IMG/VR virus record: IMGVR_UViG_3300031977_003277
Coordinates: 1 to 42,353 of that record
DNA from: a virus
Strand: one strand, 5' to 3'
DNA: 42,353 bases
Program-made: the position numbers and the translations under genes
Shown here: piece by piece, positions 1-42,353 of the stretch
How positions within the stretch are numbered: the stretch's first letter is position 1
Layout: each line of letters begins with the position of its first letter
The notes under the pieces: model-generated
Told to the model about the DNA's origin: nothing
The model's database searches: none
The model's input: only the letters and a program-made list of their open reading frames with translations

Positions 1-47
1 GATTGTGATTCTGGTTGTCGTGGGTTCGAGCCCCATCAGCCACCCCA
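1..47 (+). tRNA. 3' part of tRNA-His (GTG) at the left attachment site
   Basis: The first bases read as anticodon loop (TTGTGAT, anticodon GTG), the 3' strand of the anticodon stem, variable loop, T-arm (GTGGG / TTCGAGC loop / CCCAT), the 3' acceptor strand, the discriminator C typical of tRNA-His, and CCA at 45-47. The 5' half lies outside the window to the left, so on this side the host tRNA is presumably restored intact by integration. The right-end copy (42304-42350) is preceded by phage sequence and is only a fragment. Confidence 0.9.
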
Positions 48-50
48 CCG
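1..50 (+). repeat. attL core repeat
   Basis: These 50 bp are identical to 42304-42353. They are the crossover region of site-specific integration into the 3' half of tRNA-His. The true identity block could extend beyond the window. The core also lies inside the integrase reading frame on the minus strand. Confidence 0.95.
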
Positions 51-1173
51 TTTCTCCCTCTGACAGCGGCCCTTCGGGGCCGTTTTCCTTGGTGCCGGCC
101 GGCGCAACTTGTACCCGATTTGTACCGTGCCCGATGTTGCCGGCCCAGGCCGACAGGTGGCTCTCGCCGAGGTGGGCGTAGCGCTGCACCATCGCCTGCG
201 ACGCCCAGCCGCCCAGCTCTTGCAGCACGGCCAGCGGCGTGCCGGCCTGCACATGCCAGCTCGCCCAAGTGTGGCGCAGGTCGTGAAAGCGCAGCGTGGG
301 CAGGCCGGCGCGGATGCAGGCTTTGCGCCAGGCGTGGTTGCTGACCTTGCCGGTGGGTGCGTCGGCCACCTGCACCGGCTCGGCGCCCGGGCCGGCCTTC
401 TTTTCCCACCGCGGCACCGGGAACACCCAGCGCGGGTGCTTGCCGCGCTGGCCGGCCAGGACGATGAGCGCGGCGTCGTTGAGCGGCACATGCAAATTCT
501 TGCCGGCCTTGGCCTGGTCGCCATGCACCCAGGCGACGGCGCGCGCCGTGTCGACTTGCGACCAAGTCAGCAGCCGCACATTCGTCTCGCGCAGCCCGGT
601 GGCCAGGGCGAAGCCGGCGATCGGTTTCAGGTGCGCGGGCAGTTCCTCGAGCAGGCGGCGCGCTTCGTCTTTGCTGAGCCAGGCGATGCGCTTGGCTGGC
701 TCCGGCAGCATGGCGATCGGCGGCATGGCGGCGAGCCAGCCGCGGCGCTGCGCGTAGTGCAGGATGGCCGACAACTGCGCCAGGTGGCGGTTGACGGTGG
801 CGTTGCTGGTGGGCTTGCCCTCGGCGGTGGCCTGGCGCTTGCGCTCGGCCGCGATTTCGCGGATGGCGGTGTCGGTGATCGACGCGAGTGAGCGGCCCTG
901 CAGCCGTGCGGTGAGCCAGCGCAGCACGCGCTTGATCTCTTCGATGCTCTTGCGGTGCTGGTGCTCGGCAAGCCAGGCCACGACGGCGTGGTCCCACGTT
1001 ACTCGCGGGGTTTCGCCGAGCCGCCGCGTCCGCCAGAGATCGCGCGCAAGGGTGGCGGCGTATTCCTCCGCCGCGCGTTTTTCCGTGGTGCCAGCGCTGC
1101 GCTTAATTCGCTCGCCGTCGACGGTGATATCGATCCACCAGATGCCTCGTTTGCCGCGTTGATAGACCCGCAT
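1..1173 (-). CDS. int: Phage integrase (tyrosine recombinase), open at the left edge
   Basis: Catalyses attP/attB recombination into and out of tRNA-His. The frame gives 391 residues with no stop before the window ends. Catalytic residues are visible: R195 (in ATGLR), K225, H297-x-x-R300 (in FHDLRHTW), W323 in the His/Trp position and the nucleophile Y332 (in VQRYAHL). The N-terminal arm-binding region reads RGIWWIDIT. Start chosen at ATG 1173 because GGAGGG lies 5-10 bases upstream; an in-frame ATG at 1185 lacks a good ribosome site. The last 16 codons cross the att core. In the excised circle the frame would continue for 22 lysine-rich codons at 42303-42238 and stop at 42235. Its start overlaps the excisionase gene. 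Confidence 0.95.
   Translation of the reverse strand, partial: MRVYQRGKRGIWWIDITVDGERIKRSAGTTEKRAAEEYAATLARDLWRTRRLGETPRVTWDHAVVAWLAEHQHRKSIEEIKRVLRWLTARLQGRSLASITDTAIREIAAERKRQATAEGKPTSNATVNRHLAQLSAILHYAQRRGWLAAMPPIAMLPEPAKRIAWLSKDEARRLLEELPAHLKPIAGFALATGLRETNVRLLTWSQVDTARAVAWVHGDQAKAGKNLHVPLNDAALIVLAGQRGKHPRWVFPVPRWEKKAGPGAEPVQVADAPTGKVSNHAWRKACIRAGLPTLRFHDLRHTWASWHVQAGTPLAVLQELGGWASQAMVQRYAHLGESHLSAWAGNIGHGTNRVQVAPAGTKENGPEGPLSEGETVGWLMGLEPTTTRITI
67..86 (+). terminator. Rho-independent terminator just after the tRNA end
   Basis: A 6-bp GC stem (CGGCCC / GGGCCG) closed by a TTCG tetraloop is followed directly by TTTT. It lies 20 bp downstream of the tRNA-His CCA, on the phage side of the junction. 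It would terminate the restored host tRNA transcript and shield the prophage from host read-through. The same bases encode part of the integrase C-terminal tail on the other strand. Confidence 0.75.
109..127 (+). promoter_or_regulatory. Candidate integrase arm-type sites, left arm
   Basis: Two direct copies of TTGTACC start 11 bp apart (109 and 120), about 60 bp inside the attL core. A matching pair with the same 11-bp period lies about 70 bp inside attR (42211-42231). Paired short direct repeats flanking the core on both arms are what tyrosine integrases of the lambda type bind with their N-terminal domain. The pair overlaps integrase codons for residues 349-355. Confidence 0.6.
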
Positions 1174-1352
1174 CCTTCCCTCCATTTGCCGTACTGTGTG
1201 CGCACCCAGGCCACGACATCGTCTTCAACCAGCACATAAGCCCGGCCGATGCGCGCCGCCGGCAGACCGCGATTGTGAATGCAGTCGCTGACCGTCTCCG
1301 CCGTGGTCTGGAGCACGTCGGCGGCCTGGTCGAGGGTGAGGGTGCGGGTCAC
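999..1352 (-). CDS. Excisionase-like helix-turn-helix protein
   Basis: 117 residues starting at GTG 1352. The N-terminal 60 residues form a MerR/AlpA-type winged helix (LTLDQAADVLQTT, then ARIGRAYVLVEDDVVAW), as in small phage excisionases. The C-terminal half carries a Cys plus GGSIS-type motif that I recall from betaproteobacterial proteins encoded just upstream of integrases. That half overlaps the integrase start by 175 bp in another frame. The GTG start overlaps the stop of the upstream integron integrase gene (GTGA), so intI, this gene and int look like one transcription and translation unit. A directionality role is inferred from position and fold. Confidence 0.75.
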   Translation of the reverse strand: MTRTLTLDQAADVLQTTAETVSDCIHNRGLPAARIGRAYVLVEDDVVAWVRTQYGKWREGCGSINAANEASGGSISPSTASELSAALAPRKNARRRNTPPPLRAISGGRGGSAKPRE

Positions 1353-2365
1353 GCTGGTTGTCGCAATGCTGGCGGCGCTACGGCAGCGGCCGACGGCCGA
1401 TCGAGCGGGCTGATGACACCCCCTCCGCCCAGGCCCAGGACGTGGGTGTAGATCATCGTCGTGCTCACGTCGCTGTGCCCGAGCAGTTCCTGCACGGTGC
1501 GGATATCGTTGCCAGCTTGCAGCAGGTGCGTGGCGAACGAGTGGCGCAAGGTGTGTGGCGTGGCCGGCTTCCTGATGCCGGCGGCTTTCACGGCGCGCGC
1601 CATCATGCGCTGCACCGTTTGGTCGTAGAGGTGATGCCGGCGTAGCGCGCCGCTGCGTGGGTCGGTGACGTACTTTTCGGTGGCGAACAGGAACTGCCAC
1701 GCGAGCTGGCGCGGGGCGCCTGGGTACTTGCGGTGCAGGGCGTGCGACAGTTCCACGTCGGCATAGCCGCGCAGCACGTCGGTGGCGTGCCAGGCCTCGC
1801 GCTGCGCGAGCGTCTCGGCGATCTCGGCGCGCAGCGCGCGCGGAAGCATGACGACGCGATCCTTGTTGCCCTTGCCTTCGCGCACGGTGATGCGCATGGC
1901 GTCGAGGTCCACGTCCTTGACACGCAGGCGCAAACCCTCCATCAATCGCATACCGGTACCGTAGAGCAGCTTGAGCACCAGGCCGTGCGGTCCGCTGACG
2001 TGCGGCCAGAGGCGCGCGACTTCATCGACCGTAAGCCAGCATGGCAAGCGTTGAGGTTGCTTGGCGCGGACGATAGTGTCCACATGCGGCAGATCAACCA
2101 GCATGACCTTTTGGTACAGGAACAGCAATGCATGCAGGGCCTGGCGCTGCGTGCTGGCCGCCACGTCTCGGTCTGTTGCGAGCCACGTCAGGTACTCACC
2201 AATTTCGGGCGCGCCCATGTCACGAGGGTGGCGCTTGCCGGACCACAAGATGAAGCCGCGGATGTGATGCCAGTACGCCTCTTCCGTGCGCCGGCTGTAA
2301 TGGAGCGCGCGCACGGTTGCGATGAACTGCGCTTGCAGGCGTGGCGGTGTTGGCAGCTGCGACAT
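1349..2365 (-). CDS. intI: Integron integrase (IntI family)
   Basis: 338 residues, about the length of IntI1 (337). Tyrosine-recombinase residues are R140 (GTGMR), K165, H271-x-x-R274 (HTLRHSFATH), H297 and Y306 (TTMIYTHVL), matching IntI1 positions with a constant offset of 6. It has the insertion that distinguishes IntI from phage integrases and XerC/D: an extra helix region at about residues 209-245 with HRKYPGA, the Trp-Gln pair of LAWQF, and DPRSGALRRHH. IntI enzymes recombine folded attC sites with attI and each other. The gene faces away from cassettes lying upstream of its start, the standard integron layout. No frameshift or stop is seen, so it should be active. No LexA-type box is visible upstream. 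Confidence 0.93.
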   Translation of the reverse strand: MSQLPTPPRLQAQFIATVRALHYSRRTEEAYWHHIRGFILWSGKRHPRDMGAPEIGEYLTWLATDRDVAASTQRQALHALLFLYQKVMLVDLPHVDTIVRAKQPQRLPCWLTVDEVARLWPHVSGPHGLVLKLLYGTGMRLMEGLRLRVKDVDLDAMRITVREGKGNKDRVVMLPRALRAEIAETLAQREAWHATDVLRGYADVELSHALHRKYPGAPRQLAWQFLFATEKYVTDPRSGALRRHHLYDQTVQRMMARAVKAAGIRKPATPHTLRHSFATHLLQAGNDIRTVQELLGHSDVSTTMIYTHVLGLGGGGVISPLDRPSAAAVAPPALRQPA

Positions 2366-2412
2366 GATGCCGGTCCGGAGTTATGCGTCAGGGGGTGAGG
2401 TCGAATTCAAGT
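2366..2412 (+). other. attI-like primary recombination site
   Basis: A 46-bp stretch between the intI start codon and the first cassette ends in TTCAAG then TTAGAG, closely resembling the attI1 crossover (AAAG / TTAG). The G at 2411 and TT at 2412 mark the strand-exchange point, confirmed by the same TTAGAGCGC sequence recurring exactly 666 bp later. The site is shorter than class 1 attI, so part of it may overlap the intI coding region. Confidence 0.65.
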
Positions 2413-2444
2413 TAGAGCGCTCAAAACTTTCCGACGAACGGTAG

Positions 2445-2473
2445 TTGACAGTACCGCTCATTGAGCGTACAGT
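2445..2473 (+). promoter_or_regulatory. Cassette 1 internal promoter
   Basis: A consensus -35 TTGACA (2445-2450), exactly 17 bp, then -10 TACAGT (2468-2473). It lies 33 bp inside the cassette and upstream of the gene at 2537, so this cassette carries its own promoter and does not depend on an integron Pc. Confidence 0.8.
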
Positions 2474-2536
2474 CTCCACATCGCAGCAATACCGCTGCGG
2501 TCCCGGGCCCCGGGGCAAGTGGGCAGGAGAATAGAA

Positions 2537-2719
2537 ATGGCAAAGTATCAAATTCACTCTACCGAAGGCAACGGCTTCTGGTTCGCAAGTTCGGCTGGCG
2601 ACAGGTGCTGGACAGACACCAATCTGGCTTGCACGTTCCAAAGCCTGGAAGAGGCCGAAGACTTTGCGGCGGATGAAATGGGGCCAATCGGCGCTTTTGA
2701 AGTTGTCGAAGTCGAATGA
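2537..2719 (+). CDS. Cassette 1 small protein of unknown function
   Basis: 60 residues starting MAKYQIHSTEGNGFWF. The start ATG has CAGGAG 8-13 bases upstream; an in-frame ATG 18 bases earlier has no ribosome site. It is acidic in its second half (SLEEAEDFAADE) and likely soluble; no family is recognised. It is followed after 4 bases by a second gene, so the cassette is bicistronic. An identical gene is at 3203-3385. Confidence 0.75.
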   Translation: MAKYQIHSTEGNGFWFASSAGDRCWTDTNLACTFQSLEEAEDFAADEMGPIGAFEVVEVE

Positions 2720-2723
2720 CCCT

Positions 2724-3029
2724 ATGACCAACCACCCAAACCGGGGCCCGCAAGGGCCCTTTTCGCCACCAGCGCCTGAGGTAGTGCGCGCCCTGCGCGA
2801 CGATGCCTGCCTGAGCCAGATGCACGCCGCATCGCTGGTGCACGCCGGACTGCGCACATGGCAGCAGTGGGAGGCGGGAGACCGCAAAATGCCGGCCGCG
2901 ACGATGGAGTTGTGGTGCCTTGCCCTTGTCGTCGGCTCGTACATTGCGCCAGGCGAATGGCTGCGTCCGTTTGTGCGTCCTGATTTCATAGTGTTTTTCC
3001 AACGTCCGTTGCCGCGCGCCGCGCTCTAA
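2724..3029 (+). CDS. Cassette 1 HTH-like regulator, putative
   Basis: 101 residues. Residues 20-65 fit a Cro/XRE-type helix-turn-helix of the kind found in small plasmid and phage regulators (LSQMHAASLVHAGLRTWQQW, then GDRKMPAATMELW). The C-terminal tail is hydrophobic and aromatic. The TAA stop lies inside the attC 5' core (CTCTAAC), the usual arrangement for a cassette gene. DNA binding is inferred from the motif only. With the preceding 60-residue protein it could form a two-gene accessory module; there is no direct evidence for toxin-antitoxin activity. Confidence 0.7.
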   Translation: MTNHPNRGPQGPFSPPAPEVVRALRDDACLSQMHAASLVHAGLRTWQQWEAGDRKMPAATMELWCLALVVGSYIAPGEWLRPFVRPDFIVFFQRPLPRAAL

Positions 3030-3083
3030 CCCTCGGTTCCAGCCGACTCGCCTCCGGCGAGCGGCTGAACCGAAACGTTAGAG
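3024..3083 (+). other. attC site of cassette 1
   Basis: Core CTCTAAC (3024-3030), a long imperfect palindrome, and core GTTAGAG (3077-3083). The left arm carries two unpaired extra bases relative to the right arm, a C (GGTTC-CAG) and an A (GCCG-A-CTC). These are the same extrahelical positions as in the aadA7-type attC that IntI uses to choose strand and polarity. Recombination point at 3077/3078. Confidence 0.85.
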
Positions 3084-3110
3084 CGCTCAAAACTTTCCGA
3101 CGAACGGTAG

Positions 3111-3139
3111 TTGACAGTACCGCTCATTGAGCGTACAGT
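3111..3139 (+). promoter_or_regulatory. Cassette 2 internal promoter
   Basis: Exact copy of the cassette 1 promoter: TTGACA, 17 bp, TACAGT, preceding the gene at 3203. Confidence 0.8.
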
Positions 3140-3202
3140 CTCCACATCGCAGCAATACCGCTGCGGTCCCGGGCCCCGGGGCAAGTGGGCAGGAGAATAG
3201 AA

Positions 3203-3385
3203 ATGGCAAAGTATCAAATTCACTCTACCGAAGGCAACGGCTTCTGGTTCGCAAGTTCGGCTGGCGACAGGTGCTGGACAGACACCAATCTGGCTTGCAC
3301 GTTCCAAAGCCTGGAAGAGGCCGAAGACTTTGCGGCGGATGAAATGGGGCCAATCGGCGCTTTTGAAGTTGTCGAAGTCGAATGA
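3203..3385 (+). CDS. Cassette 2 small protein, identical copy
   Basis: Identical to the 60-residue protein of cassette 1 including its ribosome site and promoter. The duplication doubles gene dosage. No function is recognised. Confidence 0.75.
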   Translation: MAKYQIHSTEGNGFWFASSAGDRCWTDTNLACTFQSLEEAEDFAADEMGPIGAFEVVEVE

Positions 3386-3389
3386 CCCT

Positions 3390-3695
3390 ATGACCAACCA
3401 CCCAAACCGGGGCCCGCAAGGGCCCTTTTCGCCACCAGCGCCTGAGGTAGTGCGCGCCCTGCGCGACGATGCCTGCCTGAGCCAGATGCACGCCGCATCG
3501 CTGGTGCACGCCGGACTGCGCACATGGCAGCAGTGGGAGGCGGGAGACCGCAAAATGCCGGCCGCGACGATGGAGTTGTGGTGCCTTGCCCTTGTCGTCG
3601 GCTCGTACATTGCGCCAGGCGAATGGCTGCGTCCGTTTGTGCGTCCTGATTTCATAGTGTTTTTCCAACGTCCGTTGCCGCGCGCCGCGCTCTAA
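3390..3695 (+). CDS. Cassette 2 HTH-like regulator, identical copy
   Basis: Identical to the 101-residue protein of cassette 1. Its TAA stop again lies in the attC core and here overlaps, tail to tail, the stop of the opposing cassette 3 gene (3692-3694). Confidence 0.7.
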   Translation: MTNHPNRGPQGPFSPPAPEVVRALRDDACLSQMHAASLVHAGLRTWQQWEAGDRKMPAATMELWCLALVVGSYIAPGEWLRPFVRPDFIVFFQRPLPRAAL

Positions 3696-3749
3696 CCCTC
3701 GGTTCCAGCCGACTCGCCTCCGGCGAGCGGCTGAACCGAAACGTTCTGC
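3690..3749 (+). other. attC site of cassette 2
   Basis: Same palindrome and extrahelical C and A as attC of cassette 1. The 3' core reads GTTCTGC because the bases after the G/TT junction (3743/3744) belong to the next cassette. Confidence 0.82.
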
Positions 3750-3982: not shown

Positions 3983-4041
3983 GCAGAACTGTTCACTCGT
4001 GTGGGGCGGCCTTCGGCCGCCCCACAGTTCCGTCGTTAGCC
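3983..4041 (+). other. attC-like site between cassettes 3 and 4
   Basis: Core GCAGAAC (3983-3989), palindrome with an 11-bp GC stem around TTC, core GTTAGCC (4035-4041). The plus-strand left arm is two bases longer than the right (an extra trinucleotide CGT after ACT), suggesting plus polarity. The gene layout would fit either polarity. Junction at 4035/4036. Confidence 0.7.
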
Positions 4042-10853: not shown

Positions 10854-11663
10854 TTGAGCACGCGCGTCATGGCCGATTGCTGGCCACTGCAAATGCCGCC
10901 GACGCCGAAGTCGGTGTTGATCAGCATGGCCGACCAGGCCAATGACCAGGGGGTGTGTTGGCCGTCGGTGGCCACGTTGTGCGAGCGAACCTGTTTCGGT
11001 GAGCGTGCGGTGCGCATGGCGATCCGCTGGCTGGAGGGTGCGGGGTTACTGAGGGTGGAGATCGGCGCGATGCGAGCGAACCGTTACACCGTAACCCCCC
11101 ACCAATTCCGCCGGCCGGTCGATGCGCCGCCGGGCGACCCACCCCGGCACGGCGTGCCCCCCGGCATCTCGTGCCCCCCGGCAGCAGATGCCCCCCAACC
11201 GGCACGAGATGCCGGGGAGGGGGGCACGAGATGCCCCCTAACCGTCATTGAACCGAATTCAATACCCCCCAACCCCCCATTGCCGTTGGCAACGGGGGGC
11301 AAGCCTGGGCCGATCGAAGCCAAACCCAAACGCCAACGCACTGGGGCGCAAGGGTTGACGCTGAGCGATTGGCTCGAGCGGTGCAGGGCCGATGGCGTCA
11401 CGCCGATTCCTGCGCACGACCCGGTGCACGGCTACTGCGAGCGGGTGGGCATTTCGGGCGAGATCCTGGCGCTGCACTGGGCCGAGTTCAAGCTGCGCCG
11501 CAGCGAGGCGGAGAAGCGGCAGGCCGACTGGCCGCGCACGTTCCGCAATTCGGTGCGCGACAACTGGTACCGGCTCTGGTACATCGCCGCCGGCCAGCCG
11601 GCCGAGCTGACCACCACCGGGCGCCAGGCCCTGGCCGCCCACGCCACGCAGGGCGCGCGATGA
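10854..11663 (+). CDS. Replication initiator-like protein (winged helix)
   Basis: 269 residues from TTG 10854, with AGAGGG 8 bases upstream. Residues about 5-80 form a winged-helix domain of the phage replication-initiator kind (MADQANDQGVCWPSVATLCE, then GERAVRMAIRWLEGAGLL). Residues about 85-165 are a proline-rich linker encoded by iteron-like repeats. The C-terminal domain (DWLERCRADGVTPI, then WPRTFRNSVRDNWYRLW) would contact the helicase encoded immediately downstream. Architecture parallels lambda O, whose gene also contains the origin. ATGA overlap with the helicase gene. Confidence 0.8.
   Translation: MSTRVMADCWPLQMPPTPKSVLISMADQANDQGVCWPSVATLCERTCFGERAVRMAIRWLEGAGLLRVEIGAMRANRYTVTPHQFRRPVDAPPGDPPRHGVPPGISCPPAADAPQPARDAGEGGTRCPLTVIEPNSIPPNPPLPLATGGKPGPIEAKPKRQRTGAQGLTLSDWLERCRADGVTPIPAHDPVHGYCERVGISGEILALHWAEFKLRRSEAEKRQADWPRTFRNSVRDNWYRLWYIAAGQPAELTTTGRQALAAHATQGAR
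11146..11235 (+). repeat. Five iterons inside the initiator gene: putative phage origin
   Basis: 13-bp units of the form GGCACGAGATGCC occur at 11146 (variant, inverted-type GGCACGGCGTGCC), 11163 (inverted, exact), 11180 (variant GGCAGCAGATGCC), 11201 (exact) and 11223 (exact). Spacings are 17, 17, 21 and 22 bp. A relatively A/T-richer stretch follows (11238-11263). Repeats in the middle of an initiator gene are the hallmark of lambda-type origins. Confidence 0.75.
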
Positions 11664-39134: not shown

Positions 39135-39457
39135 AACTCGAATACAACGAAATCTTCACCCACCCAGTGGTGGCCGCCGCCGTGGGCGCCGTGCTCGGCC
39201 TGCGCGCGCTGCCGGGCACGTCGCGGCTCGAGAAGCTGGCCAACGTCACCGCCGGGTTCGCCATTGCCGCGTGGGCCGGCGGCGCGCTGGTCGAGCAAAT
39301 GGCGGTGCAGTCGCCGCGCCTGGCCGCCGGCATGATTTTCGTGGTGGGCGCATGCGGCCTGGTGGTGTTCAACGCTGTCACCGAAGCCATCAAGCGCACC
39401 GACTTCGCCGAGTGGGTGCGCGAGTGGCTGCCGCGCCGCAAAAAGGGGGACGAATGA
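39131..39457 (+). CDS. Putative holin, three membrane segments
   Basis: 108 residues with three hydrophobic segments (VVAAAVGAVLGLRAL; VTAGFAIAAWAGGALV; AAGMIFVVGACGLVVF) and a charged C-terminus (RRKKGDE), the topology of class I holins. Upstream of the endolysin gene. AAGAGGAG upstream. Confidence 0.72.
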   Translation: MKLEYNEIFTHPVVAAAVGAVLGLRALPGTSRLEKLANVTAGFAIAAWAGGALVEQMAVQSPRLAAGMIFVVGACGLVVFNAVTEAIKRTDFAEWVREWLPRRKKGDE

Positions 39458-40052: not shown

Positions 40053-41164
40053 GAGACGCCATCGCCCTGGCCGGCCTGCTCGGCGATGCCAACGTGCGCG
40101 CCTTCCTGCGCGTCATCCGCGCGGGCGAGGGCACGGCCGACGACGCCGGCTACCGCCGCCATTTCGGTGGCCGCCTGTTCGACAGCTACGCCGATCACCC
40201 GCGCGTGGCCATTACGGCCGGCCTGGGCAAGCACAAGTACACCAGCACCGCCGCCGGCGCGTACCAGTTTCTGGCGCGCACCTGGGACGGCCTGGTGCGC
40301 CAGTACGGCTTCGCCAACTTCGAGTCGAGCACGCAAGACATCGCCGCGCTGGCGCTCATCGACGGCCGCAAGGCGCTCGACGACGTGATCGCCGGGCGCT
40401 TTGCCGATGCGGTGCGCAAGTGCGCCCGCGAGTGGGCCTCGCTGCCCGGCAGCCCCTACGGCCAGCCCACGCGAACCATGGACCAGGCGCGCGCGACGTA
40501 CCTCGCCGCCGGCGGCTTGTTCGCGGCGGCCGGCACCACCACGCGCGAGGCTCCGGCGGCCCGCGCGCAAACCATCCTGGCTGCCGACAGCAGCGCATCG
40601 ATCACCACCAAGGAGGCCACCATGCCACTGCCAGCCATCATCGGCGCCCTGCTGCCGACCATCATCGAAGCCATCCCACGCTTGGGCAAACTGTTCGGCA
40701 GCGGCAGCGAGGTTGCCGAGCGCAACGTTAAAGCCGCCGAGCTGGCCGTGCAGATCGTCCAGGAGGCCACAGGCGCGCGCAACGCGCAAGAGGCGACAGA
40801 GATGGTCAAGGCCGACCCGGCAGCCGCTCAGGCGGCCGTTGCGGCGGTCGAGGAGCGCTGGTACGAGCTGACCGAGGCCGGCGGCGGCGGCATCGAGGGC
40901 GCGCGCAAGGCCGATGCCGCCATCATGGCTATGGGCGGCCCGTGGTGGGACTTCCTGCGCTCGCCGAGCTTCTGGTGCCTGCTGATCCTCTCGCCGCTGG
41001 TGTACCTGCTGGTCGGCAGCTTGATCGGCCTGTGGGGCACCGCGGTCTGGTCAGACGATGTGCGCGCCGGCCTGGCCGGCTCGATCGTCAGCTCGATCAT
41101 CGGGGCGGCGGTCGGGTACTACTGGGGGCAGACGACGAGCCGCAATCGGACGCCCCTGGCGTAG
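40049..41164 (+). CDS. Endolysin (lambda R-like) fused to a holin-like domain
   Basis: 371 residues. Residues ~15-165 are a GH104/lambda R-type transglycosylase: catalytic Glu27 in RAGEGT, HFGGRLFDSYADHPRV, then TSTAAGAYQFLARTWD. Residues ~192-371 form a separate part: a short hydrophobic N-terminus (MPLPAIIGALLPTIIEAIPR), an Ala/Glu coiled region, and two C-terminal membrane segments (FWCLLILSPLVYLLVGSLIG; SIVSSIIGAAVGYYWG). The second part has its own ideal ribosome site, so two products are expected. Fusion to a membrane anchor would be unusual for a canonical endolysin. Confidence 0.88.
   Translation: MRDAIALAGLLGDANVRAFLRVIRAGEGTADDAGYRRHFGGRLFDSYADHPRVAITAGLGKHKYTSTAAGAYQFLARTWDGLVRQYGFANFESSTQDIAALALIDGRKALDDVIAGRFADAVRKCAREWASLPGSPYGQPTRTMDQARATYLAAGGLFAAAGTTTREAPAARAQTILAADSSASITTKEATMPLPAIIGALLPTIIEAIPRLGKLFGSGSEVAERNVKAAELAVQIVQEATGARNAQEATEMVKADPAAAQAAVAAVEERWYELTEAGGGGIEGARKADAAIMAMGGPWWDFLRSPSFWCLLILSPLVYLLVGSLIGLWGTAVWSDDVRAGLAGSIVSSIIGAAVGYYWGQTTSRNRTPLA
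40622..41164 (+). CDS. Internal in-frame product: holin-like protein
   Basis: AAGGAGG (40610-40616) lies 5 bases before ATG 40622, the best ribosome site in this region, although it sits within the endolysin reading frame. The resulting 180-residue protein has a hydrophobic N-terminal helix, a charged middle and two C-terminal transmembrane segments, a complete holin-like membrane protein by itself. I infer independent translation from the same mRNA. Confidence 0.65.
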   Translation: MPLPAIIGALLPTIIEAIPRLGKLFGSGSEVAERNVKAAELAVQIVQEATGARNAQEATEMVKADPAAAQAAVAAVEERWYELTEAGGGGIEGARKADAAIMAMGGPWWDFLRSPSFWCLLILSPLVYLLVGSLIGLWGTAVWSDDVRAGLAGSIVSSIIGAAVGYYWGQTTSRNRTPLA

Positions 41165-41167
41165 GCC

Positions 41168-41422
41168 ATGCGGCGCCGTCGTATCTACACCGTGCAGCCA
41201 ATCCAGGGCGAGCCGGGCTGGTGGGAGTGGGTCAGGCCGGACAGCCGGCTGGTGCGCGGCATCCGCCGCCTGGCCCGCCAGCGGTGCAAGGCCGATCTGG
41301 TGCGCGTGGCGCGCTGGTTTTGCCGCGCCCGGCCGCCAGCGCAATTGCGCATCAAGGGCCGCGACGGGCAGATCCAGACGGAACATACTTACGGCGCCGA
41401 TCCGCGGCGGCACAAGGGGTAG
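41168..41422 (+). CDS. DUF2188-like small protein
   Basis: 84 residues. C-terminal PPAQLRIKGRDGQIQTEHTY, then GADPRRHKG, matches the DUF2188 signature (short beta-hairpin domain of unknown role). Last rightward gene of the late operon. Confidence 0.8.
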   Translation: MRRRRIYTVQPIQGEPGWWEWVRPDSRLVRGIRRLARQRCKADLVRVARWFCRARPPAQLRIKGRDGQIQTEHTYGADPRRHKG

Positions 41423-41445
41423 TGTAACGACCAACCCGCCGCTGT

Positions 41446-41535
41446 GCCGAACCTAGTCTTCGAGTTTGGCGCGGGGGTGTTATCGGACATGGCGGGTGTT
41501 ATCGGACAGGGGGTGTCTGCGAATTCACGTTCGGC
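41446..41535. other. Degenerate attC-like site before right-end cassette A
   Basis: GCCGAAC (41446-41452) and GTTCGGC (41529-41535) are complementary cores, with weak arm complementarity (TTCGAG against TTCGCAG). The middle holds two direct copies of GGGTGTTATCGGACA (41475-41489 and 41494-41508), 19 bp apart, which do not belong to an attC and resemble an inserted or remnant terminal repeat. Junction at 41529/41530. Confidence 0.45.
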
Positions 41536-41536
41536 C

Positions 41537-41836
41537 TCAGTCGTCGCGGTCGATCTTGAGGGCGATCTTGAGCAACTTGTCCATATGTGCTTCGGTGAGC
41601 TTATCGGCCATAGCGCCGCGCACTTTCTCCCGAAGGTCGGCATCCCCCAAAACCGCTGTGCGGACCATGTCCCGAATGGCCTCTGTGGTGGCTTCTTCGA
41701 CTGCGCGCTGGAAGCTGTATCCAGCGAGACTCGCAAGCACCGCTGTTTCGATGCGCTTGCCGATTCCAGCCTTGACGATGGCGTCTACGATCTGGCGCTC
41801 GATTGCTTCGGGCGCGATGTCAATCTTGATGTCCAT
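41537..41836 (-). CDS. Cassette A protein, reversed, right end
   Basis: 99 residues from ATG 41836, with GAGAGGA 5-11 bases upstream in the leader AAGCGAGAGGAA also seen before the cassette 4 gene. Helical: APEAIERQIVDAIVKAGIGK, then EEATTEAIRDMVRTAVLGDA. Resembles small helical phage or plasmid proteins; no family named. Its stop lies 7 bp from the cassette junction at 41529/41530. Confidence 0.7.
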   Translation of the reverse strand: MDIKIDIAPEAIERQIVDAIVKAGIGKRIETAVLASLAGYSFQRAVEEATTEAIRDMVRTAVLGDADLREKVRGAMADKLTEAHMDKLLKIALKIDRDD

Positions 41837-41863
41837 GTCTTTCCTCTCGCTTCGGCACCAGAG

Positions 41864-41922
41864 GCCGAACTGGTTAATCGAGAGGGACTGCCTTCGGCAG
41901 CCCCTCATTGCCGACGTTACGC
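41864..41922 (+). other. attC-like site of cassette A
   Basis: Core GCCGAAC (41864-41870), palindrome closing on CTGCC TTC GGCAG, core GTTACGC (41916-41922). GAGGCCGAAC (41861-41870) is the exact complement of the cassette A start (GTTCGGCCTC, 41529-41538). Arms are 22 and 20 bases with an extra trinucleotide on the plus-strand left arm, like the site between cassettes 3 and 4. Confidence 0.7.
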
Positions 41923-42132
41923 CTGCTTAGCCCATGCCAGCAGGAATGCCGCCAGTTCGCGGGCTTGTGCCTTCGTCAGGTCAATCGTCACCTCACGGCC
42001 AAAACCGCTTTCCGTGTCACCAGCCCATGGCCGGTCACAGGTAATGTCCAGCGTTCCATCGCTGCGAACGGTAGCGCGCAGCGCGCTGTCAGTACCGCCG
42101 ACCTCAGTCAGTTCAAGTTCTTTGTCATCCAT
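41917..42132 (-). CDS. Cassette B protein, reversed, right end
   Basis: 71 residues from ATG 42132 (or 42135), after GAGGGA. Sequence MDDKELELTEVGGTDSALRA then VTIDLTKAQARELAAFLLAW, a small alpha/beta protein. The TAA stop is supplied by the first bases after the G/TT junction (41917-41919), as in cassette 4. No matching attC is found to its right, so this unit seems truncated next to the integrase 3' segment. Confidence 0.68.
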   Translation of the reverse strand: MDDKELELTEVGGTDSALRATVRSDGTLDITCDRPWAGDTESGFGREVTIDLTKAQARELAAFLLAWAKQA

Positions 42133-42210
42133 CATTCCCTCGCTTCCGGGCCACAGTCCCACCCCCGCCCAAAACACCAACCCGTTCCGAACCTGTCACC
42201 GCCCATGCAA

Positions 42211-42231
42211 AGTTGTACCGTAGTTGTACCG
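42211..42231 (+). promoter_or_regulatory. Candidate integrase arm-type sites, right arm
   Basis: Two copies of AGTTGTACCG (42211-42220 and 42222-42231) with an 11-bp period, the same motif, orientation and spacing as the pair at 109-127. Confidence 0.6.
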
Positions 42232-42234
42232 CGA

Positions 42235-42303
42235 TCAGGCCGCTTTTGGCTTTTTCGCCGCGCGTAAGTGCTTGATTTTATTGGCGTCGGATGCGCCGGA
42301 ACC
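42235..42303 (-). pseudogene. int: Displaced 3' end of the phage integrase gene
   Basis: In the excised circle base 42303 joins base 1. The integrase frame entering from codon 391 continues here for 22 codons (GSGASDANKIKHLRAAKKPK and AA) and ends at TGA 42237-42235. In the prophage this segment is separated from the gene by the whole genome and has no start. Confidence 0.8.
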
Positions 42304-42353
42304 GATTGTGATTCTGGTTGTCGTGGGTTCGAGCCCCATCAGCCACCCCACCG
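42304..42353 (+). repeat. attR core repeat with tRNA-His fragment
   Basis: Exact copy of bases 1-50. The sequence to its left is phage, so 42304-42350 is only the 3' half of a tRNA-His and is not expected to make a functional tRNA. Confidence 0.95.

Follow-up and report, generated by a model that had tools for sequence, protein, structure and literature searches.

A probable remnant of a second, older phage-type integron beyond attP in a temperate phage with a resident integron

The window analysed here, the whole stretch of 42,353 bp, is an entire IMG/VR virus record, and the cassettes near its right end are, with a probability of roughly 80%, what remains of another, older integron, in the arrangement ΔintI2-attI2-A-B, which shares its phage-specific type with the resident integron near the left end. 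An initial annotation had described a second cassette cluster at this position; its cassettes are real, but a second integron platform to the left of A, consisting of attI2 and an intI2 stub, had been overlooked. The features of the right cluster are:

41423 to 41490, minus strand: intI2 stub, ~22 codons from the start of a second intI, interrupted by a frameshift and a TAG
41498 to 41531, minus strand: attI2, the second attI (AACGTGAATTCGCAGACACCCCCTGTCCGATAAC), 28.9 bits
41530 to 41916, plus strand: cassette A, 387 bp between its two G/TT junctions, start and end complementary at 10/10 positions
41537 to 41836, minus strand: ORF A, 99 aa, reversed relative to attC, of no known family
41864 to 41922, plus strand: attC of cassette A, 51.3 bits (CM R1, E 3e-10), the best match in the window
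41917 to 42135, minus strand: ORF B, 72 aa, in the incomplete cassette B (attC lost)

For attI detection, a matrix was built from 42 phage attI sites, with attI2 excluded. In the window it scored attI1 at 32.1 and attI2 at 28.9 bits, the next sites following at 18.7 and then 9.8 bits; the 18.7-bit match, at 39135, coincides with the start of the holin gene and was put down to chance. The intI2 stub is fused to the end (stop codon) of a phage gene at 41168-41422. In blastn, 41453-41537, comprising stub and attI2 together, matched the phage locus L070 at its intI start with 80% identity over 89 bp, the alignment passing through attI and then the intI start ATGTCCGATAACACC..., with a frameshift and a stop. 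Against the L070 intI start the stub scored 23, a value reached by 0/2000 shuffles; past the ninth codon the match is weak, with 12 points reached by 7/5000 shuffles for L070 and 264/5000 for L073. The closest loci to stub and attI2 are L070 and L073, which pair on a separate, starred branch of the IntI tree, away from IntI1, and the resident IntI is nearest to L003; we therefore assign the two platforms to different lineages, the relic not being a copy of the resident. In L073, the intI type of the stub occurs together with the same att and an int of 59% identity.

The resident integron has an IntI family protein, an attI and an array with three attC:

1349 to 2365, minus strand: IntI1, the resident integron integrase (TIGR02249, 436.8 bits, cut-off 265)
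2380 to 2413, minus strand: attI1, 32.1 bits
2412 to 3077, plus strand: cassette C1, with forward ORFs and its own promoter-like sequence; attC at 3024-3083, 42.9 bits
3078 to 3743, plus strand: cassette C2, a copy of C1; attC at 3690-3749, 44.8 bits
3744 to 4035, plus strand: cassette C3, with a reversed ORF; attC at 3983-4041, 47.8 bits
4036 to 4471, plus strand: cassette C4, the last, with a reversed ORF; no attC detected by the covariance model

C1 is duplicated exactly as C2 (668-bp exact repeat at a spacing of 666, that is, a 666-bp unit spanning 2412-3743). The forward ORFs of C1 and C2 are accompanied by a TTGACA-17-TACAGT-like sequence, and C1b resembles an HTH regulator, weakly VC1465-like. 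C4 (4036-4471) has a perfect match between its start and end cores, yet no detectable attC hairpin. By the same measures, the right cluster has an attI, a cassette with attC in A only, and no functional intI.

The phage encodes terminase, portal, head protease/major head protein, tape measure, tail proteins, holin and endolysin, and an integrase, an att core in a tRNA-His end and joined ends mark it as temperate. The elements of its att region are:

1 to 50: left att core
1 to 1173, minus strand: phage tyrosine integrase int (PF00589, phrog_1), 413 aa when completed across attP in the circle
42192 to 42303: P arm of attP, which holds the last int codons (stop ending at 42235) and is kept past int in 10 relatives
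42304 to 42353: right att core, an exact copy of 1-50

The 50 bp shared by the window ends are identical and correspond to the tRNA-His 3' end. The int frame is open through the left att core and, when the ends are joined, continues into the right end up to the stop at 42235, yielding a 413-aa protein with the C-terminus ...NKIKHLRAAKKPKAA; an int ending of the same type, reached via the same GWLMGLEPTTT.IT core, is found in 10 related contigs with contiguous int and P arm. As int is completed across attP and its C-terminus is kept in these 10 relatives, the adjacency of the window ends in a circle is well supported, and the cluster does lie next to attP, int and intI in the circular form, as initially annotated. 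attP lies inside the int gene, and with attP placed there (42235-42303 with 1-1173) integration alters the integrase C-terminus. The order in the circle is lysis genes - ΔintI2 - attI2 - A - B - attP - int - xis - intI1 - attI1 - C1 - C2 - C3 - C4 - early genes.

The retention, on the far side of attP, of attI2 together with a 5' remnant of another type of intI is what the displacement of an older integron by the present block would lead one to expect. Most likely, an older attP-int-intI2 block was lost as the present attP-int-xis-intI1-attI1 block arrived beside the old array, which would thereby have been stranded on the far side of attP; intI2 would have been deleted down to its first ~22 codons, leaving attI2, A with its intact attC, and B without one. 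The earlier proposal that the block was inserted into an existing array is thus favoured, in modified form. The cluster retains a single attC, which counts against a relic integron, and we found no phage with an intermediate arrangement. For IntI to work on two sides of the integrase block, as the initial annotation suggested it may, an attI and an intact attC would be required beyond attP; both are present there, and IntI1 could act in trans, excising A or inserting cassettes at attI2. Like int and intI, ORFs A and B are read leftward, which in the circle puts them beyond attP at the far end of the leftward block, where they may be co-transcribed from the leftward operon of the phage.

In a more specific version of this best explanation, a single ancestral array attI2-A-B-C3-C4 was split by insertion of attP-int-xis-intI1-attI1 between B and C3, with C1 and C2 entering later at attI1. 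The arrays on both sides of attP share one orientation; C3, C4, A and B all carry reversed ORFs with a similar leader, while those of C1 and C2 are forward; the last cassette on each side (B and C4) is without attC; and the intI2 stub is the 5' end beside attI2, as expected if an older int-intI2 was deleted. As no uninterrupted array was found and the joint between P arm and B shows no remaining site, we consider such a split a serious possibility, at somewhat less than even odds.

The remnant of an older integron has parallels in other phages. The intI-int block and the attP side of the window recur in six relatives (L004, L008, L012/L013, L016, L067, L073); across their whole records, attC occur only on the attI side of intI, and past the P arm they carry unrelated sequence without attC. 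The array of L016 crosses the record ends, consistent with a circular genome. In L083, L084, L085 and L088, int is present with neither IntI nor attC, which makes the integron accessory. Relic platforms are recurrent. L022 has, in addition to a complete integron, a relic next to the phage int that comprises another copy of the same attI, ~25 codons of an intI and four attC; in L060, an attI that has one attC but is not backed by an intI lies 2.7 kb from an intact intI. Such relics, together with the in-frame completion of int by the right end and the C-terminus kept in 10 relatives, make a chimeric assembly of the right end, which might be suspected in a metagenomic virus record, improbable. 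In L013 (8894-9680) and L012 (4615-5401), a C1-like leader and a C1b homolog lie beyond attP without attC. L047 has a plus-strand attC of 34.8 bits on the far side of intI (11015-11082), possibly another remnant.

Cassette A bears the signature attributed to it at the outset, with a G/TT junction at 41529/41530 and a start complementary to its own attC core (10/10). Integron integrases can use secondary G/TT sites, and IntI1 might in this way have put A and B into a chance site close to the lysis genes; the left flank of A is no chance site, being a complete attI that is backed by an intI start, and we regard this origin as very unlikely.

For attC detection, a covariance model (CM R1) was trained on 29 attC from arrays of other phage IntI loci, none of them from the window, picked by the rule that the cassette start pairs with the cassette end. 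In the resulting alignment, which was fitted with the structure in mind, 9/13 pairs covary, with 68 double changes versus 20 in shuffles; in slid controls, a fairer test of the structure, at most 46% of cells were paired versus 92%. The model identified exactly four attC in the window (42 kb), all on the plus strand, the next match scoring 13.7 bits. It also recovered the class 1 attC of phage P1, on the strand that the P1 ORFs predict, so that attC orientation is secure; A's attC accordingly forms its right end, and ORF A is reversed. A minus-strand reading of the A and C3 attC, which would render their ORFs canonical, was allowed by a first hairpin scan and rejected, the model matching the plus strand only. 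An Rfam search of the window gave no matches.

Cassette A, with the best-scoring attC of the window at 41864-41922, is structurally intact. The initial annotation would have given up its cassettes had a covariance search found no attC at this position, or had homologous phages carried these genes as fixed ones; the site was found, and no homologous phage with A or B as fixed genes turned up. ORF A has no relatives in viral_contigs or genome_contigs and ORF B none in viral_contigs, neither matched a defence family, and sigma-70 promoters and terminators in 40900-42353 did not exceed chance. Homologs that would show mobility are thus missing, as would suit genes that are simply fixed in the phage and happen to carry a palindrome, a reading that is scarcely tenable against a 51.3-bit attC, 10-bp edge complementarity and relatives with the same attP side but no such genes there.

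Both reversed ORFs have stop codons formed by the cassette edge (41537 for A, 41917 for B), as initially claimed, and ORF A starts 28 nt from its own attC. Cassette B begins with GTTACGCCTG at A's attC. The same signature had been ascribed to both cassettes; in B the edge stop is present, and neither an attC by the covariance model nor a complementary core was found. The sequence CAGGCGTAAC, matching B's start, occurs in the window without mismatch only at that start, and copies with 1-2 mismatches are at chance level. As CAGGCGTAAC does not recur, no attC follows and P-arm homology with the relatives begins at about 42181-42192, we conclude that the end of cassette B is missing.

Qi et al. 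(2023; PMC9892861) described phage integrons and CALINs and, in one prophage, a second array with an attI of its own; a literature search outside subscription journals found no further work on phage integrons. That prophage, Shewanella M16-3 (MZ568829), resembles the window phage in having a complete integron and a second, intI-less array starting at attI (PMC9892861). It carries the Shewanella chromosomal integron, with an IntI 95% identical to that of S. oneidensis (PMC9892861), and the annotated ORFs of its array share the strand of the attC; unlike in M16-3, both window platforms are of the phage-only type with reversed ORFs and flank attP, and an intI stub is kept. The Vibrio anguillarum phages Va_90-11-286_p16 and PF430-3_p42 are also temperate and carry integron parts, but these are captured pieces of the host chromosomal integron (PMC9892861), whereas the window IntI falls into an all-viral clade. 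The class 1 integron in phage P1 (MH445380, L154) shares the IntI-attI-attC organisation of the window but has a resistance array with forward ORFs, and its IntI is 56% identical. A CALIN, defined by at least two attC without intI (PMC9892861), is similar to the right cluster in having cassettes without a neighbouring intact intI; the right cluster differs in its single attC and in its attI and intI stub, and does not qualify as one. Earlier reports saw phage integrons as pieces captured from host integrons, while two platforms of different lineages flanking attP in one phage make platform replacement visible.

In a tree of 125 IntI, whose chromosomal set consisted of the best 80 matches of one search, the window's IntI lies in a group of 41, all viral, with a support of 96 by a quick method. 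The Rubrivivax MAG contig L168 looks like a phage of this type in a host bin. We think it fairly likely that temperate phages have an integron lineage of their own, with an all-phage IntI clade, a characteristic attI by int, back-to-front cassettes that can be read by the phage's own leftward operon rather than from an outward integron promoter, and platforms that are replaced and leave relics such as attI2-A-B. In a back-to-front cassette, start codon and ribosome site would lie at or in attC, with the ORF reading toward attI/intI. If this is true, phages evolve and exchange small genes through a dedicated integron system, and cassette expression without an outward promoter becomes a directly testable question.

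Cassette orientation was counted with the same covariance model in 81 complete phage-locus cassettes and 67 chromosomal ones. As the orientation of the longest ORF alone is noisy in GC-rich DNA (35 reversed and 29 forward), ORFs were counted only with a Shine-Dalgarno-like site, the longest being taken. Relative to attC, these were 59 reversed and 6 forward in phage cassettes versus 9 reversed and 49 forward in chromosomal ones (Fisher p 4e-18, treating cassettes as independent though many share a locus). Phage cassette start codons typically lie 14-36 nt from attC, and in 18/59 inside attC, in its loop (L003-L082 arrays). A reversed stop at cassette offset 8 was discarded as a mark of reversed ORFs, being equally common in chromosomal cassettes (33% and 30%), as was a second leader hairpin pairing with R'' (13 versus 6.2 expected, permutation maximum 15). 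Genes distal to the arrays run in the same direction over 34 kb and in the opposite one over 18 kb, with 9 to 11 for the nearest ORF, which fits an operon but is only suggestive. A conserved leader, TGGTGCCGAAGCGARAGG, occurs in 10 IMG/VR loci, mostly directly adjoining attC. In L158, L159, L161 and L163-L165, the leader TTCGGCC(TC)TGGTGCCGAAGCGARAGG adjoins attC upstream of unrelated ORFs.
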